Positions 1,231 to 20,151 of a stretch of DNA of 42,496 nt are shown in pieces; positions within the stretch are counted from its first letter, which is position 1, and each line of letters opens with the position of its first letter. Origin of the DNA: a virus; the IMG/VR virus record IMGVR_UViG_3300045970_000056, positions 1 to 42,496 of that record; one strand, 5' to 3'. Position numbers and translations under genes: made by a program. The notes beneath the pieces were generated by a model that saw only the letters and a program-made list of their open reading frames with translations, searched no databases and was not told where the DNA came from.

Positions 1231-2256
1231 ATGGTCATAATAGCTAATTCAGAAATTGGTTATCCGGGCGCTAGTGAAACTAATGCGTTTGTCGCAAAGG
1301 AACCCTATGTGGTTAATCATTGTGGTACTCTTAGGACAATTCCCTTGGCTGGAGCATCCCGTTCACATGACTTTAGTGGGAGTGTTCCATTTATTAATCC
1401 TGTAACCAATAGAAGTGATATTCAGCAAATTCAAACGTGGTCTGGAGGGGTAGTCGCTCCCTATGATACGGGTATCACAAATAAAGGCATACCGGGTAGA
1501 GTTGATAAAACGACTTTTGGTAATGATACCGTTACCCTGATTAAATATAATAAGGGTGATGGCATTACTTTTCAAAAATGCCGATCAAAGATCATGGCGT
1601 GGCCCATTCCAAATCGAGTTCATGCAAGATTTTATTTAGAAATGGCATTTGGTAGCAATGCTGATCCTTGGGTATTGACACCAGCAGGTATCCCACCTGC
1701 CTCAGGTGTTTCTCCTGTGGCTTTTTGGGGAATCTCTGATGAAAACCAAAGTAGTGGGCCATTTGGACTTGAAGTTGATACGGATAATAGAGATCCTGCA
1801 AACTTAATGGTAAGTGTATTTCGACGTGTATTAACAGATGGTGTGAGTAAAGTTCGACTTTATATCATTAGAAGTGTACCAAGACATACTATGGTTCGTA
1901 TTATGCTGGATATGTTCCTTGATGAGAGAGCTACCTCAGCAGGTGGTAAAGGTGCTTTTAATCTTTATTATAATGATAACTTAGTATTTTCGCAAACTGG
2001 TCCAACTATGGCTAATATAACAGGTACTAAGAATCCGTACTGGTCAATACATACGTATTTGTGGACTGAAGCTCTGCCTTATAAATATAATCGAGCTATA
2101 TTTTTTAAGACCGCTAAGATGCTAGTGTATCCGGTTAAACCTATAGCACCTCCTATTCCTCCTGTGCCTCCCGTACCTCCAGTATTAACTACAGAACAAA
2201 GAGTAGATGCTCTAGAACATCGTGTAGATGCTATTGAAAAGGGTTTGGTGTTATGA
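1231..2256 (+). CDS. Predicted virion surface protein with Pro-rich, coiled-coil C-terminus
   Basis: The product has about 341 residues from the ATG at 1231; a TTG start at 1216 would add five. The first 290 residues look like a beta-rich, lectin-like fold but match no family I can name. They are followed by a Pro-rich linker of PxPP repeats and a short heptad tail (QRVDALEHRVDAIEKG) that should trimerise or dock. This layout fits a fibre-like or capsid-attached protein. The stop overlaps the next start (ATGA). No good ribosome binding site precedes 1231 or 1216. A 17-codon frame beginning at 1187 ends just past 1231, so translation may be coupled or frameshifted. Confidence 0.65.
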   Translation: MVIIANSEIGYPGASETNAFVAKEPYVVNHCGTLRTIPLAGASRSHDFSGSVPFINPVTNRSDIQQIQTWSGGVVAPYDTGITNKGIPGRVDKTTFGNDTVTLIKYNKGDGITFQKCRSKIMAWPIPNRVHARFYLEMAFGSNADPWVLTPAGIPPASGVSPVAFWGISDENQSSGPFGLEVDTDNRDPANLMVSVFRRVLTDGVSKVRLYIIRSVPRHTMVRIMLDMFLDERATSAGGKGAFNLYYNDNLVFSQTGPTMANITGTKNPYWSIHTYLWTEALPYKYNRAIFFKTAKMLVYPVKPIAPPIPPVPPVPPVLTTEQRVDALEHRVDAIEKGLVL

Positions 2257-2888
2257 CCTATGAGGAAATAGTCAGCACCTCACTGGCTTATGCAGATAGG
2301 CAAGATGTTGCTGTGATTAGTCGTGTCGATATATTTATGCGTATGGCTGAGTCACGTATTAACCGGCTTTTAGTTATTGAGGATATGAGTATTCGTTACA
2401 TATTCTCAGAGCCTAATCCTGTTAATGGACGGTATGACTTACCAGCAGATTTTTCTGCTATTCGAGATATTGCTATAGTTGACTCACTTGATTCAAAGAA
2501 TAGGCTAACGCTTTCACTGATTAACCCAGAACAAATGAATACGGCCACCAGCACAGTTAATATTGATAATAGCCTAAAACATTTTTATCAGATATTGAAT
2601 AAACAACTTGTTATACAACCTCCTGTAATTGATGGCTCTAAGTATCTCGAAATAGTTTATTACGGGAATATAGCTCCATTGACGCTTGATAATAGTACTA
2701 ATTGGATATCTAACAATCATCCTGACTTATATATTGATGGCATTCTTGTTGAGATTAATGCATTTATAAAGGATGCTGAAGCGGCTGCTTTATGGGATGG
2801 GCGATTTAAACAAGTTATTGATGAATTGGCGAATGCTGACAACCTTCTTGTGTATAGCGGTTCAAGTCTTCAAACACGGGTTGGATAA
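2253..2888 (+). CDS. Head-to-tail adaptor protein
   Basis: The 211-residue protein resembles the phage adaptor family that docks under the portal in short-tailed phages. Supporting signs are an N-terminal helical region (YEEIVSTSLAYADR ... RMAESRINR), a central beta segment with YDLPADFSAIRDI, and a C-terminal helical bundle including HPDLYIDGILVEINAF and AALWDGRFKQVIDEL. This order is typical for the family. It overlaps the upstream gene by four bases and is followed one base later by an HNH endonuclease that separates it from the tail fibre genes. The family call is from pattern memory. Confidence 0.65.
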   Translation: MTYEEIVSTSLAYADRQDVAVISRVDIFMRMAESRINRLLVIEDMSIRYIFSEPNPVNGRYDLPADFSAIRDIAIVDSLDSKNRLTLSLINPEQMNTATSTVNIDNSLKHFYQILNKQLVIQPPVIDGSKYLEIVYYGNIAPLTLDNSTNWISNNHPDLYIDGILVEINAFIKDAEAAALWDGRFKQVIDELANADNLLVYSGSSLQTRVG

Positions 2889-2889
2889 T

Positions 2890-3423
2890 ATGAAATTTAT
2901 TAAGTTGCCATCCGTAGAGTTTTTAAATAAATCATTGTCTTATAATCCTGATACTGGAAATATATTTCGTTTGACAGGAAGGTATAAGGGGGCTATTGCT
3001 GGGGCTGTAAGTGTAAAAGGAAGACACGTTATAGATTTAGTCATTGATGGAAAAACCGTTAAATTTTATTCAGCAAGAATAGCTTGGAAAATATTTTACA
3101 AAGAAGAGCCTACTTCTCAAATTGATCATATTAATGGCGATAAGTTAGATAATAGAATTTGTAATTTAAGAGCGGCTACAAATTCAGAAAATCAATGTAA
3201 TACGTCAAAAAGAGATAACTCTAGACCGTATAAAGGTGTTTTTAAACGGCGAAACGCCAAAGGAAAGCACTATAAAGATTGGACATATCAAATTAGGTTT
3301 GATTATAAACTTTATCAGGTTTCTGGGTTCGCTACTGCTGAAGAAGCATTTGAAGCCAGATGTGCTTTTGGTAAACAATTACATGGCGATTTCTATAACG
3401 CTGGAGGTGTATCATCGCTTTAG
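2890..3423 (+). CDS. HNH homing-type endonuclease with AP2-like DNA-binding domain
   Basis: The 177-residue free-standing endonuclease starts at the ATG at 2890, one base after the adaptor stop. The N-terminal 70 residues resemble the DNA-binding part of phage HNH proteins. The HNH core is at about 77-104 (IDHINGDKLDNRICNLR, then ENQCN), with His80 as the likely catalytic residue. Residues 113-175 look like an AP2-type DNA-binding domain (YKGVFKRR ... GFATAEEAF). Such genes nick or cut homing sites and spread as selfish elements. It is wedged between adaptor and tail fibre, overlaps the fibre 5' end, and provides that gene's ribosome binding site. Confidence 0.9.
   Translation: MKFIKLPSVEFLNKSLSYNPDTGNIFRLTGRYKGAIAGAVSVKGRHVIDLVIDGKTVKFYSARIAWKIFYKEEPTSQIDHINGDKLDNRICNLRAATNSENQCNTSKRDNSRPYKGVFKRRNAKGKHYKDWTYQIRFDYKLYQVSGFATAEEAFEARCAFGKQLHGDFYNAGGVSSL
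3403..3407 (+). promoter_or_regulatory. Strong ribosome binding site ahead of an ATC start
   Basis: GGAGG lies inside the end of the HNH gene. It sits 6 bases before the ATC at 3414, which is optimal spacing for initiation there. No ATG, GTG or TTG lies near it in the tail fibre frame. Confidence 0.6.
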
Positions 3424-5429
3424 AAACTGGCTCAACAATAGCGGCATTAAATGTTGCTAACCCTACAATTACTGACCCCGTAGGGCAAGCGGATGACCAC
3501 TTACGCCTTATAAAAACAGTATTAAAGACGACTTTTCCTGGTGCAGCAGGGACTGGTTATGCAATACCTATTACTGCAACAGAAGCTGAATTAAACCATG
3601 TGCATGGCGTAACCAGCGATATACAGACGCAGCTTAATACTGTGGGCACCAGTAAAGCAAATCTAGCCTCGCCTACTTTTACAGGAACTGTTTCTGGTAT
3701 TGATAAAACGATGGTGGGATTGCCTAATGTAGACAATACCTCAGACGCTAATAAGCCAGTTTCAACAGCTCAGCAAACTGCTCTTGATTTAAAGCAGCGT
3801 CTTAGCGGTAAAGATGCAACGGGTGGCTATGCTGGATTAACGCTATTCAATATAAACTTCAAAAATGTATTGAATACCTTTACTAGCTTCTTCACTAATT
3901 CTAATACAGCAGCACGTACCTATGCGTTTCCTGATAAGGATATAACGGTAGCGGGACTTGATGATATTACAGGGACTAATTCAGGGATTAATACGGGCGA
4001 CAGTGCTGTTAATTCTTTATATAGCGGGTTAATTACCAACGCTACACATACAGGCGACGTAACAGGGAGTAATGAATTAACGATAGCTAGCAAGGCAGTA
4101 ACGCTAGCTAAAATGAATGATATGGCGACAGCCTCATTGATCTATCGTAAGACAGCTGGTGTGGGTGCTCCTGAAGTCAATTCCCTGGAAACTTTGAAAA
4201 CCGACCTTACTTTAGTTAAAAGTGATGTGGGTTTAGGCAATGTTAATAATACATCGGATGCCAATAAGCCTATATCCACAGCTCAACAAGCGGCATTAGA
4301 CTTTAAGGTAGATATTACTTCTATTACTCCCGTTGCGTTTGGTGGTACTGGGCTGACAGCATTAGGGCCAGCAGGTTATGTGTTAGCGACTAATGCGGGT
4401 GTCACAGCTATGGAGTGGATAGCACCTGCATCAGGTGGTGGAGGTGGTGGCACTGGTAGTGTTACCTCTGTTAGCTGTTCAGGTGGCACGACAGGACTCA
4501 CGTTAGCGGGTGGGCCGATAACTACGACGGGCACATTCACGCTAGGCGGGTTATTAGTTTCAGCTAACGGCGGTACGGGCAATGGTTTTGCAAAGTTTAC
4601 TGGGCCTACTACCGCTGAAAAGACGTTTACTTTGCCTGATGCGAATGCCACGTTGTTATATTCAGGTGGTGCATTAGGTACGCCTGTAAGTGGAAACGCT
4701 TCTAATCTGACTAATTTTCCAACTCTTAATCAGAATACGAGTGGCACAGCGGCAGGGTTATCCACACCACTCGTTGTTGCATCAGGTGGTACAGGATTAA
4801 CGGCTCTTGGCACGAGCGCACAAGTTCTAAGGACGAATGTTGCGGGTACGGCTATGGAGTGGGCAACCGCATCAAGCGGGAGTTCAATAGGTTATTCGAC
4901 GTATGATGCTAGAAACGATTTACGAGCATTAACACCTACTGCCCATGCTTTAATTGTTGTTGAATCGTTAGGTTTATTTCAGTGGTTTTCAGGTAGCACA
5001 GAACCTGATGATGATGAAACCAGCTTTGCCACAGCATCAGGTGTTTGGCAGTTAATCGCAGCACATACAGACATGGTGTTTGCTAATTGGCTTGCAGAAG
5101 TTGATAGTTTATATAGTGCGGTAGATACGTTAACCGCATTTACGGGTAAGTTTTTACGTGGTTCTTTCAATATGACGTTGACTAGTTTGGGGGCTATTTC
5201 TACAACAGTATTCACGGCACCAGTAGCGGGAGCTTCTATTGGGGATAGTGTTATTGTTAATCCAGGAAATGGTTTTGGTAATGATGATGGTAGTAAGGCA
5301 ATTCTTAATTATAAAGCTTATGTCAGTTCAGCAAATATAGTTACTATTAATGTATGTAATTCAGCAACGGCAGCCTATGTAGCGAATATAACCCCCTCAA
5401 CCTGGTCTGTTTTAGTTATCAAACAATAG
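3414..5429 (+). CDS. Tail fibre protein, apparent ATC start
   Basis: From 3414 the frame gives 671 residues. The first usual start codon (GTG 3600) would lose about 62 residues that match the N-terminus of the collar protein at 6604: both have LE....TIA, then DPxxQxDDxLRLIKxVL, then ITATExExN. The ATC at 3414 aligns exactly with that gene's ATG, and an upstream stop at 3396 rules out much extension. Further on are two copies of a fibre repeat (VGLxNVxNTSDANKP) near 105-130 and 275-300, and two GGTGLTAL blocks separated by a Gly-rich stretch. These are common in phage tail fibres. The role is probably receptor contact. Confidence 0.75.
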   Translation: MALETGSTIAALNVANPTITDPVGQADDHLRLIKTVLKTTFPGAAGTGYAIPITATEAELNHVHGVTSDIQTQLNTVGTSKANLASPTFTGTVSGIDKTMVGLPNVDNTSDANKPVSTAQQTALDLKQRLSGKDATGGYAGLTLFNINFKNVLNTFTSFFTNSNTAARTYAFPDKDITVAGLDDITGTNSGINTGDSAVNSLYSGLITNATHTGDVTGSNELTIASKAVTLAKMNDMATASLIYRKTAGVGAPEVNSLETLKTDLTLVKSDVGLGNVNNTSDANKPISTAQQAALDFKVDITSITPVAFGGTGLTALGPAGYVLATNAGVTAMEWIAPASGGGGGGTGSVTSVSCSGGTTGLTLAGGPITTTGTFTLGGLLVSANGGTGNGFAKFTGPTTAEKTFTLPDANATLLYSGGALGTPVSGNASNLTNFPTLNQNTSGTAAGLSTPLVVASGGTGLTALGTSAQVLRTNVAGTAMEWATASSGSSIGYSTYDARNDLRALTPTAHALIVVESLGLFQWFSGSTEPDDDETSFATASGVWQLIAAHTDMVFANWLAEVDSLYSAVDTLTAFTGKFLRGSFNMTLTSLGAISTTVFTAPVAGASIGDSVIVNPGNGFGNDDGSKAILNYKAYVSSANIVTINVCNSATAAYVANITPSTWSVLVIKQ

Positions 5430-6301: not shown

Positions 6302-6607
6302 ATGAAATTACTTATACGAGATAATCAGGTTATAGGCACAGCCACTGATGAATACAATGGCCCTGAGGAAACGAGGCCAGCAGATGACGCTTATTATGCA
6401 ACGGAAGCGGCTAGAGTAGCACAAGAGAAAAAAGATGCAGATGACCACGCATCGGCTAAAACCTATGCCAAATTAACCGCACTAAAGAATATGTCTCCCG
6501 CTGAGATTCAGACGTGGGTGACGGCTAATGTTAACACCTTAGCTCAAGCTAAAGACGCCATTATGACATTGGCTATTGGGCTATCCGTTTTAGCGAGACG
6601 ATTATGA
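6302..6607 (+). CDS. Small tail-associated protein, possible fibre assembly factor
   Basis: This 101-residue protein has a short beta start (MKLLIRDNQVIGTATDEY) and a long charged helical region, the size and shape of small phage tail fibre assembly or chaperone proteins. No diagnostic motif is visible. It starts 3 bases after the preceding stop and overlaps the collar gene by four bases (ATGA), implying coupled translation with fibre genes. Confidence 0.55.
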   Translation: MKLLIRDNQVIGTATDEYNGPEETRPADDAYYATEAARVAQEKKDADDHASAKTYAKLTALKNMSPAEIQTWVTANVNTLAQAKDAIMTLAIGLSVLARRL

Positions 6608-7392
6608 GTTTAGAACAAGCAAAAACGATTGCGCAATTACAAACCAATAACCCCACACCACAAGACCCTATTAACCAAGGTGATGACCAGCTACGCCTCA
6701 TAAAAAAGGTGCTGCAATTACAATTTCCGGGTGTTACAGGAACAGGATTCTCTACAGCCATTACAGCAACAGAAGATGAAATAAATTACCTTTCTGGTGT
6801 AACTGGCCCTATACAGGCACAGTTAGGCGGTAGTGTTCCGATAGGGGGGATTGTGATGTGGACAGGGGCTACAGCTCCTCAAAAATGGCGAATATGTGAT
6901 GGAACTAACGGAACTCCTGACCTAAGGAATAGGTTTATTGTAGGTGCCAGTACTGCCCATCCAATGGGTATAGTAGGGGGCCAGGCTGATGCTGTTGTAG
7001 TTGCACATGCCCATACTGCAAATTCTACTGGCTCTATTAATTTAGCAACAGGTGGAGCGCTATCTAATCACACTCACAACTTTACGACGAGTCCTGCCGA
7101 TGTAAACCACACGCATGGTTATACCGTTACTAATACTTCTTCACAAGGCGCATCTAGTCTTGGTGGGGGGATTGCTGTGGGTAAAGCAAGCATCATGACT
7201 GATGGGATGAGTGCAGGTAGTAATAATCCGCACGTACATTCTGGTACAACCTTAGCTGAAAATTCAATACACACGCATGGTGTAGCGGGAGCCGTAACTG
7301 TGACCACAGGTATTCTTGTGGAAGGTGTTTTAGGTACAAATGCTAATTTGCCGCCTTATTACGCGTTAGCCTATATTATGCGTTATCTGTAA
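6604..7392 (+). CDS. Tail fibre with phage tail collar domain
   Basis: The 262-residue protein has an N-terminal module of about 70 residues shared with the long tail fibre at 3414. A phage tail collar domain follows at about 80-120 (VPIGGIVMWTG ... GWRICDG-like KWRICDG, then TPDLRNRFIVGA). A His-rich stretch with HTH and HAHT motifs comes next, and the protein ends NLPPYYALAYIMRY, the usual end of this domain. His-rich loops in T4 gp12-type fibres bind metal ions along the trimer axis; a similar role is likely here. It probably makes a short fibre or collar spike. Confidence 0.8.
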   Translation: MSLEQAKTIAQLQTNNPTPQDPINQGDDQLRLIKKVLQLQFPGVTGTGFSTAITATEDEINYLSGVTGPIQAQLGGSVPIGGIVMWTGATAPQKWRICDGTNGTPDLRNRFIVGASTAHPMGIVGGQADAVVVAHAHTANSTGSINLATGGALSNHTHNFTTSPADVNHTHGYTVTNTSSQGASSLGGGIAVGKASIMTDGMSAGSNNPHVHSGTTLAENSIHTHGVAGAVTVTTGILVEGVLGTNANLPPYYALAYIMRYL

Positions 7393-18582: not shown

Positions 18583-20151
18583 TTATACCTCTACTAATGT
18601 TATTGTACGTTTTTCATAATCCCGTATTTGTTGAAATGAATGATTCATTATTACATCTTGTATATCATATACAATTGGTTGGCCATGCACATTAAAAGAA
18701 GTATTTATAAGTATTGGAAACTTTTTAAGTATACCATGCATATAATGACCTTCGTCAATAACTTGTGGCCTACCAGAAAAAACACCACGAAGATTATAGG
18801 CAGCACCTATCATTCTATCATTAACATAATTATATTCTAAAGCTATTATCATATGTTCGACAGACCTAATTATATTGCATGGTTGATCGAATACTTTATT
18901 ATAAGTAAAACGGTTCATAACTGGGCATAGTGGCATTACTTCATGCCGCTCATTTAGATGCCCAATATATTTTGCATTACGTTCTGTTGGTAAGGCAATT
19001 GTGCTTGTATTACAATAAGCTCTCTCACCAAATTCCATTCTATCTATTACTACATTCACGATTCTATCAAAGCATAGGTGTTCATACAAATCTTTAGCAA
19101 GATGTTCTGTAAATATTAAATTACCAGCAGAAGCATATTTAGTTTTATCAATTTTTGGTCGTATGCCAAAACAAAGATCATCTTGTATTACAAAGTCATT
19201 ATTATATATTTTGTATAGTCCAAGGCCAGCACCACAATCACCAGATAATGGCATTATGCATATGGAATCCACATAATGCGCCAGGTAACCGTTTAATTGT
19301 ACATTCATAAAGCAACCGCCAGCTAATAATAGATTCTTTATATTGTATTTTTGTATTATATGCCTAAATATCTGTTGTACAACTTCTTGTAATACAGTTG
19401 CTATTATTGGTGCATCATTTTTTGTAAAATACATGGATAAAAATTCATGCACATATTTATGCATTTTAACCAATTCTGTTAAACTATAGTCATCTGCATT
19501 ACGTTTATACATATTATACATAATAATACCGTATAAAACATCTATAATATAATTAGCATTATTTAAGTCTTGATGTGTAGTAGATGCTGCTAAAGCATTT
19601 AGTTTCCATTCGTCTTGGTTCATTTTAAAACCACAGAAGTCTGTAGCATATTGGTACCATAGACCTAATGAAGCAAGATAATTTTTATATGTATGTATAG
19701 GAATAGCACAATCTTCATCAACTTCATATATACTTGTGACTTCGCCAAGATTGCCAAAACCATCTGCAACTATTATATGTGTGTTTGGTTGTATTTTATC
19801 TTTTGCATAAGCCATAGCTGAATACGCATGGGCATCATGATGTGTGTATATATAATTTGATGATATGAGTTTCTTACCTTTAACAAAATCTGGATGAAAA
19901 TGTTTTTTGTTCATTTTAAACACATCACCAGTTGGTTCCCAATGTGATATGTATATAGTAACATCATCTGGTATTACATGGAACTTCTCAATTTCTTGTA
20001 TTGCTTGTATAGGAAATTGAGAATCTGACTTGATTTTTGTTATTCTCTCATTTTGGTAGCCATTTACTACCTTATTATCTTGTATTGCTATTGCACTAGA
20101 ACCATGCCCTAGCGTTAATACTAATGAATCTATTGTAAGTTTATCTATCAC
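18583..20151 (-). CDS. NodU/TobZ-family O-carbamoyltransferase
   Basis: The 522-residue enzyme starts with GTG at 20151 (AAGG upstream). Family motifs occur in order: GHGSSA at 15-20, NERITKIKSDSQFP at 34-47, the metal site HHDAHAYSA at 104-112, DGFGNLGE at 130-137, AGGCFMN at 277-283, DCGAGLG at 305-311, EFGERA at 373-378, and NTSFN in the C-terminal domain at 483-487. Known members use carbamoyl phosphate and ATP to place a carbamoyl group on a hydroxyl of a sugar or antibiotic. Next to a hydroxymethylase, the likely acceptor is the hydroxymethyl group of the modified base in DNA or nucleotide. It is the first gene of the operon, about 20 bases from a conserved promoter. Confidence 0.92.
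   Translation of the reverse strand: MIDKLTIDSLVLTLGHGSSAIAIQDNKVVNGYQNERITKIKSDSQFPIQAIQEIEKFHVIPDDVTIYISHWEPTGDVFKMNKKHFHPDFVKGKKLISSNYIYTHHDAHAYSAMAYAKDKIQPNTHIIVADGFGNLGEVTSIYEVDEDCAIPIHTYKNYLASLGLWYQYATDFCGFKMNQDEWKLNALAASTTHQDLNNANYIIDVLYGIIMYNMYKRNADDYSLTELVKMHKYVHEFLSMYFTKNDAPIIATVLQEVVQQIFRHIIQKYNIKNLLLAGGCFMNVQLNGYLAHYVDSICIMPLSGDCGAGLGLYKIYNNDFVIQDDLCFGIRPKIDKTKYASAGNLIFTEHLAKDLYEHLCFDRIVNVVIDRMEFGERAYCNTSTIALPTERNAKYIGHLNERHEVMPLCPVMNRFTYNKVFDQPCNIIRSVEHMIIALEYNYVNDRMIGAAYNLRGVFSGRPQVIDEGHYMHGILKKFPILINTSFNVHGQPIVYDIQDVIMNHSFQQIRDYEKRTITLVEV

Follow-up and report, generated by a model that had tools for sequence, protein, structure and literature searches.

We analysed a window of 42,496 bases, the whole stretch of an IMG/VR virus record from a tailed phage. 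On its + strand, an SU10-type adaptor or virion structural gene (2253..2888; PF24175, E 5.5e-24; phrog_2941) is followed by a gene for a free-standing HNH endonuclease of 177 amino acids (2890..3423), a tail-fibre gene of 671 codons when read from an ATC at 3414 (3414..5429) and a gene for a collar-domain tail protein that shares its N-terminal domain with the fibre and starts at an ordinary ATG (6604..7392). The HNH protein was identified by matches to phrog_99 (E 4.1e-46) and PF13392 (E 2.1e-11; 43.7 bits against a cut-off of 24.8) and by alignment of related HNH proteins. The fibre matched phrog_6465 over residues 2-77 together with tail-fibre PHROGs, while the collar-domain protein matched phrog_6465 over residues 1-64, phrog_5795 and, weakly and below the cut-off, PF07484. 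Elsewhere in the window, two adjoining genes (335-901 and 906-1190) contain, by eye, repeated VPDLTGLT-type segments that are PASTA-like, and a 522-amino-acid gene with a GTG start on the − strand (18583-20151) looks carbamoyltransferase-like, also by eye.

The fibre frame (3399-5429) opens behind a TAA at 3396-3398 and ends with the stop codon at 5427-5429. A codon scan agreed with the original prediction that the frame is open from 3399 with no usual start until GTG 3600; the start-like codons upstream are ATC 3411, ATC 3414 and five ATA or ATT codons. The HNH stop codon, TAG, lies at 3421-3423, so the HNH and fibre genes overlap. Among genes 90 codons or longer, the fibre is the only real complete case in the window to lack ATG, GTG and TTG throughout its first 60 codons; the other frame picked out in this way (1-321) is truncated at the edge of the window.

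Translated from 3414, the fibre product (IALETGSTIAALN...) aligns without gaps with the protein encoded at 6604 (MSLEQAKTIAQLQ...), with 36 of 66 residues identical by eye, and the match of each to PHROG 6465 begins at position 1 or 2 of that family. The proposed alignment of ATC 3414 (3414..3416) with the ATG of the collar gene thus stands, and it extends to the relatives: of 159 rows from relatives, 157 have ATG at the corresponding codon and 2 have GTG, the rows being drawn from two scans and counting some contigs twice. Since all 159 rows carry ATG or GTG here, the alignment places ATC 3414 at the homologous position of the fibre start and marks it as exceptional among relatives. Nearby pairs of tail proteins with a common N-terminal domain were seen both in the window (3414-3610 and 6604-6800) and in one relative, L010 (621-820 and 2352-2582).

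Codons 2 to about 62 of the fibre encode this conserved N-terminal domain. Against a profile built from 53 relatives, codons 2-66 gave an HMM score of 108.0, within the leave-one-out range of 73.8-118.8 and in the middle of the scores of intact relatives. Comparison with relative L013 over 61 codons gave a pS of 0.78 and a pN of 0.17, similar to the adaptor gene values of 0.84 and 0.17. By these measures the domain appears undecayed, which argues against long disuse and is compatible with very recent loss; its conservation mostly reflects the time before the ATC change and is no proof of present translation. These data bear on the idea that the ATC inactivated the fibre gene, leaving a fibre-poor phage that relies on the collar protein at 6604. 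Two proteins in the window do share the N-terminal domain, and in relatives L002 and L004 the fibre place itself is taken by a collar-type gene, but the 671-codon frame is open throughout and its N-terminal domain is intact. We regard inactivation as improbable, with the reservation that a very recent loss would look alike.

The history of the start region emerges from relatives without the HNH gene, which is missing at the equivalent site in L002-L012 and L016. In HNH-free relatives with 70-77% identical adaptors, a fibre or collar gene begins no more than about 10 bases after the adaptor stop, the collar type lying directly at the insertion place in L002 and L004. The junction in L016 reads ggttaggataatATGagtctggaa, with the fibre-type gene start ggttaggataatATG at the matching place; in the window it reads ggttggataatATGaaattt, and the ATG there belongs to the HNH gene (2890). 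The two 5′ junctions agree over ggataatATG, and the L016 comparison shows that the native fibre Shine-Dalgarno (SD) and start region, ggttggataatATG (2877..2892), now serves as the HNH gene start. The fibre resumes at GCTTTAGAAAC (3417), matching L007 from codon 2 on (ATGGCTTTAGAAAC). Because the fibre ATG of the best-match relative occupies the position of the HNH ATG at 2890, the comparison shows that the HNH gene was inserted between the native fibre start site and codon 2, taking over the native start and ribosome-binding region. The original prediction held that homing of the HNH gene had rewritten the fibre start and left an ATC, unless the base was a sequencing error; comparison with HNH-free relatives, where the adaptor runs straight into a fibre or collar ATG, bears out the insertion and the rewritten start region, though not that homing itself left the ATC.

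Two further readings are that −1 frameshifting within the overlap at 3399-3420 yields a fusion of HNH and fibre proteins, and that the HNH segment is an intron removed by splicing. Splicing is countered by the lack of any Rfam match in the window, to a group I or group II intron or otherwise, and by an HNH reading frame that fills the inserted segment. Frameshifting draws some appeal from the overlap and from an internal GGAGG about 10 nt 5′ of CTT-TAG, a likeness to stimulated sites in layout only; by inspection, however, there is no slippery heptamer, and a P-site CTT would need to re-pair on GCT. We rejected both readings, which seem the most remote of the explanations weighed.

In exchange for the native region, the 3′ end of the HNH gene supplies a new one. 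As originally proposed, a GGAGG lies within the HNH end six bases 5′ of ATC 3414; we located it at 3403..3407, in the codons for A-G-G-V. Predicted pairing with the anti-SD gives −10.6 kcal/mol for a start at 3414, the strongest value among the scored genes of the window (the next is −10.2; the collar gene at 6604 has a weak −3.5). GGAGG occurs only 12 times on the + strand of the window, where an SD score as good as that of 3414 is reached at just 0.25% of the positions sampled. RNA folding over 3374-3453 showed nothing unusual (z 0.70). These scores also weigh on the view that GTG 3600 is the sole start of the fibre, which would then lack its N-terminal domain. No conventional start precedes that codon in the frame, but it has almost no SD (−0.7), and its use would drop an undecayed domain that is present in every surveyed relative. 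An internal start was likewise rejected and is very unlikely.

The first base of the HNH TAG lies 7 nt 3′ of the A of ATC 3414. Given this overlapping layout, termination-reinitiation is plausible, and fibre translation is probably coupled to HNH termination; work in E. coli has demonstrated SD-dependent termination-reinitiation at overlapping gene pairs (PMC6728339). AUC is among the rare but known bacterial start codons (PMC6397469). It would be expected to be weak, yet here it is paired with the strongest SD of the window and with likely coupling to the HNH gene, so the effect on fibre output is not readable from the sequence.

To place this arrangement in context, we aligned related HNH proteins, took 80 of their loci together with eight annotated phage loci, and counted over the 81 distinct HNH 3′ ends that were followed by sufficient DNA. 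The start of the next gene overlapped or adjoined the HNH stop in 39 of the 81, and 33 of these 39 starts had an SD score of −5 or better, the SD itself falling entirely or for the most part within the HNH tail. In several relatives (L132:1950-1992, L133:1020-1060, L139:1940-1977 and L208:2930-2970), the codons of a conserved C-terminal HG(E/D)F motif, QGEF in L208, double as the SD of a next gene with an ATG that overlaps the stop of the HNH gene. At L188 and L200, a G-G pair after the conserved codons creates the GGAGG that the window also has. Phage genes often overlap and the 39 of 81 come without a matched control for other phage genes, so we report overlapping next-gene starts as context, not as a property special to the HNH family. 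For HNH genes of this kind, the layout in the window is ordinary, and the AUC is its one unusual feature.

The next genes of the 39 begin with ATG in 38 cases and GTG in one, although this outcome was built into the search, which sought such starts. A separate look for startless frames downstream of related HNH genes found none: inspection of the translations showed that the candidate at L143, a RecT-like gene, has a GTG that is plausible as its start and that the remaining candidates are likely non-coding frames. Thus, no other surveyed HNH insertion has lost the ATG or GTG of the next gene, which counts against reading the AUC as a start, as does the low amount in which an essential fibre would be expected from such a codon. 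The survey also goes against the earlier suggestion that homing left the ATC, as all 39 next genes at HNH stops retain a conventional start. In unrelated viruses, GGAGGTGTATCATGGCTTTA is an ordinary ribosome-binding site followed by ATG. With next-gene starts of HNH relatives being ATG or GTG and this string being ordinary elsewhere, it appears more likely that an ATG later underwent a G-to-C change, or that the base is an error, than that the insertion event made the ATC.

The base error is the main rival to AUC initiation. Here, the ATC would be a consensus or assembly error, or a minority variant, and the real virus would have ATG at 3414 as a normal start on the HNH-supplied ribosome-binding site. 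The sequence is one base from a canonical ribosome-binding site and ATG that is found verbatim in unrelated viruses, and ATG or GTG is the rule in all relatives and in all surveyed overlaps of HNH and next genes. Against this, single-base consensus errors that hit a start codon are rare a priori, and the surrounding sequence is intact in both frames. No second copy of the locus was found when viral_contigs was searched with an exact string from the HNH tail and genome_contigs with the junction string, near-identical records possibly lying outside the searched sets. We consider an error possible but on the unlikely side.

We therefore favour, with moderate confidence, fMet initiation at AUC 3414, driven by the SD and possibly coupled to HNH termination. 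A free-standing HNH homing-endonuclease gene has inserted exactly at the fibre start site; its ATG now uses the former ribosome-binding site of the fibre, and its 3′ end provides the replacement GGAGG ahead of fibre codon 1. That codon would subsequently have become ATC, probably by a single-base change after the insertion and most likely from ATG. AUC 3414 is then most likely read with fMet, either by direct initiation on the strong SD or by reinitiation of ribosomes finishing the HNH gene.

Several known systems resemble parts of this arrangement. Phage free-standing HNH endonucleases (phrog_99, with the T4 mob genes as the studied model) share the HNH_3 domain, the free-standing organization and insertion at a gene boundary; unlike in the mob model, the downstream start codon in the window is ATC. 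Endonuclease genes of T4 also embed control signals for downstream genes, but these are promoters (PMC2988022), whereas the HNH gene of the window embeds a ribosome-binding site. In Salmonella phage INT55 and Escherichia phage vB_EcoS_ASO78B, the 3′ end of a related HNH gene carries an SD and overlaps the start of the terminase gene, which begins with ATG rather than ATC. Among rare bacterial AUN starts, infC and pcnB use AUU and are alike in having a non-NUG start behind an SD, presumably read by initiator tRNA; the window differs in that a phage structural gene lies directly 3′ of a mobile-gene insertion and its use of the codon is putative. Hecht et al. are said to have measured initiation from all 64 codons in 2017. 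We found no published description of a phage AUC start in the literature searched.

A stronger version, that the HNH insertion swapped the fibre start for an AUC behind the strongest SD of the window, coupled to the endonuclease, as a naturally selected non-NUG start tying fibre dosage to a mobile gene, is doubtful in our view. If real, the AUC would be a rare start codon of modest interest in itself, and gene callers limited to ATG, GTG and TTG would annotate the fibre without its conserved N-terminal domain. It would be a naturally occurring AUC start of a phage structural gene, and would indicate that a mobile gene can seize the start of its neighbour and return a replacement ribosome-binding site.
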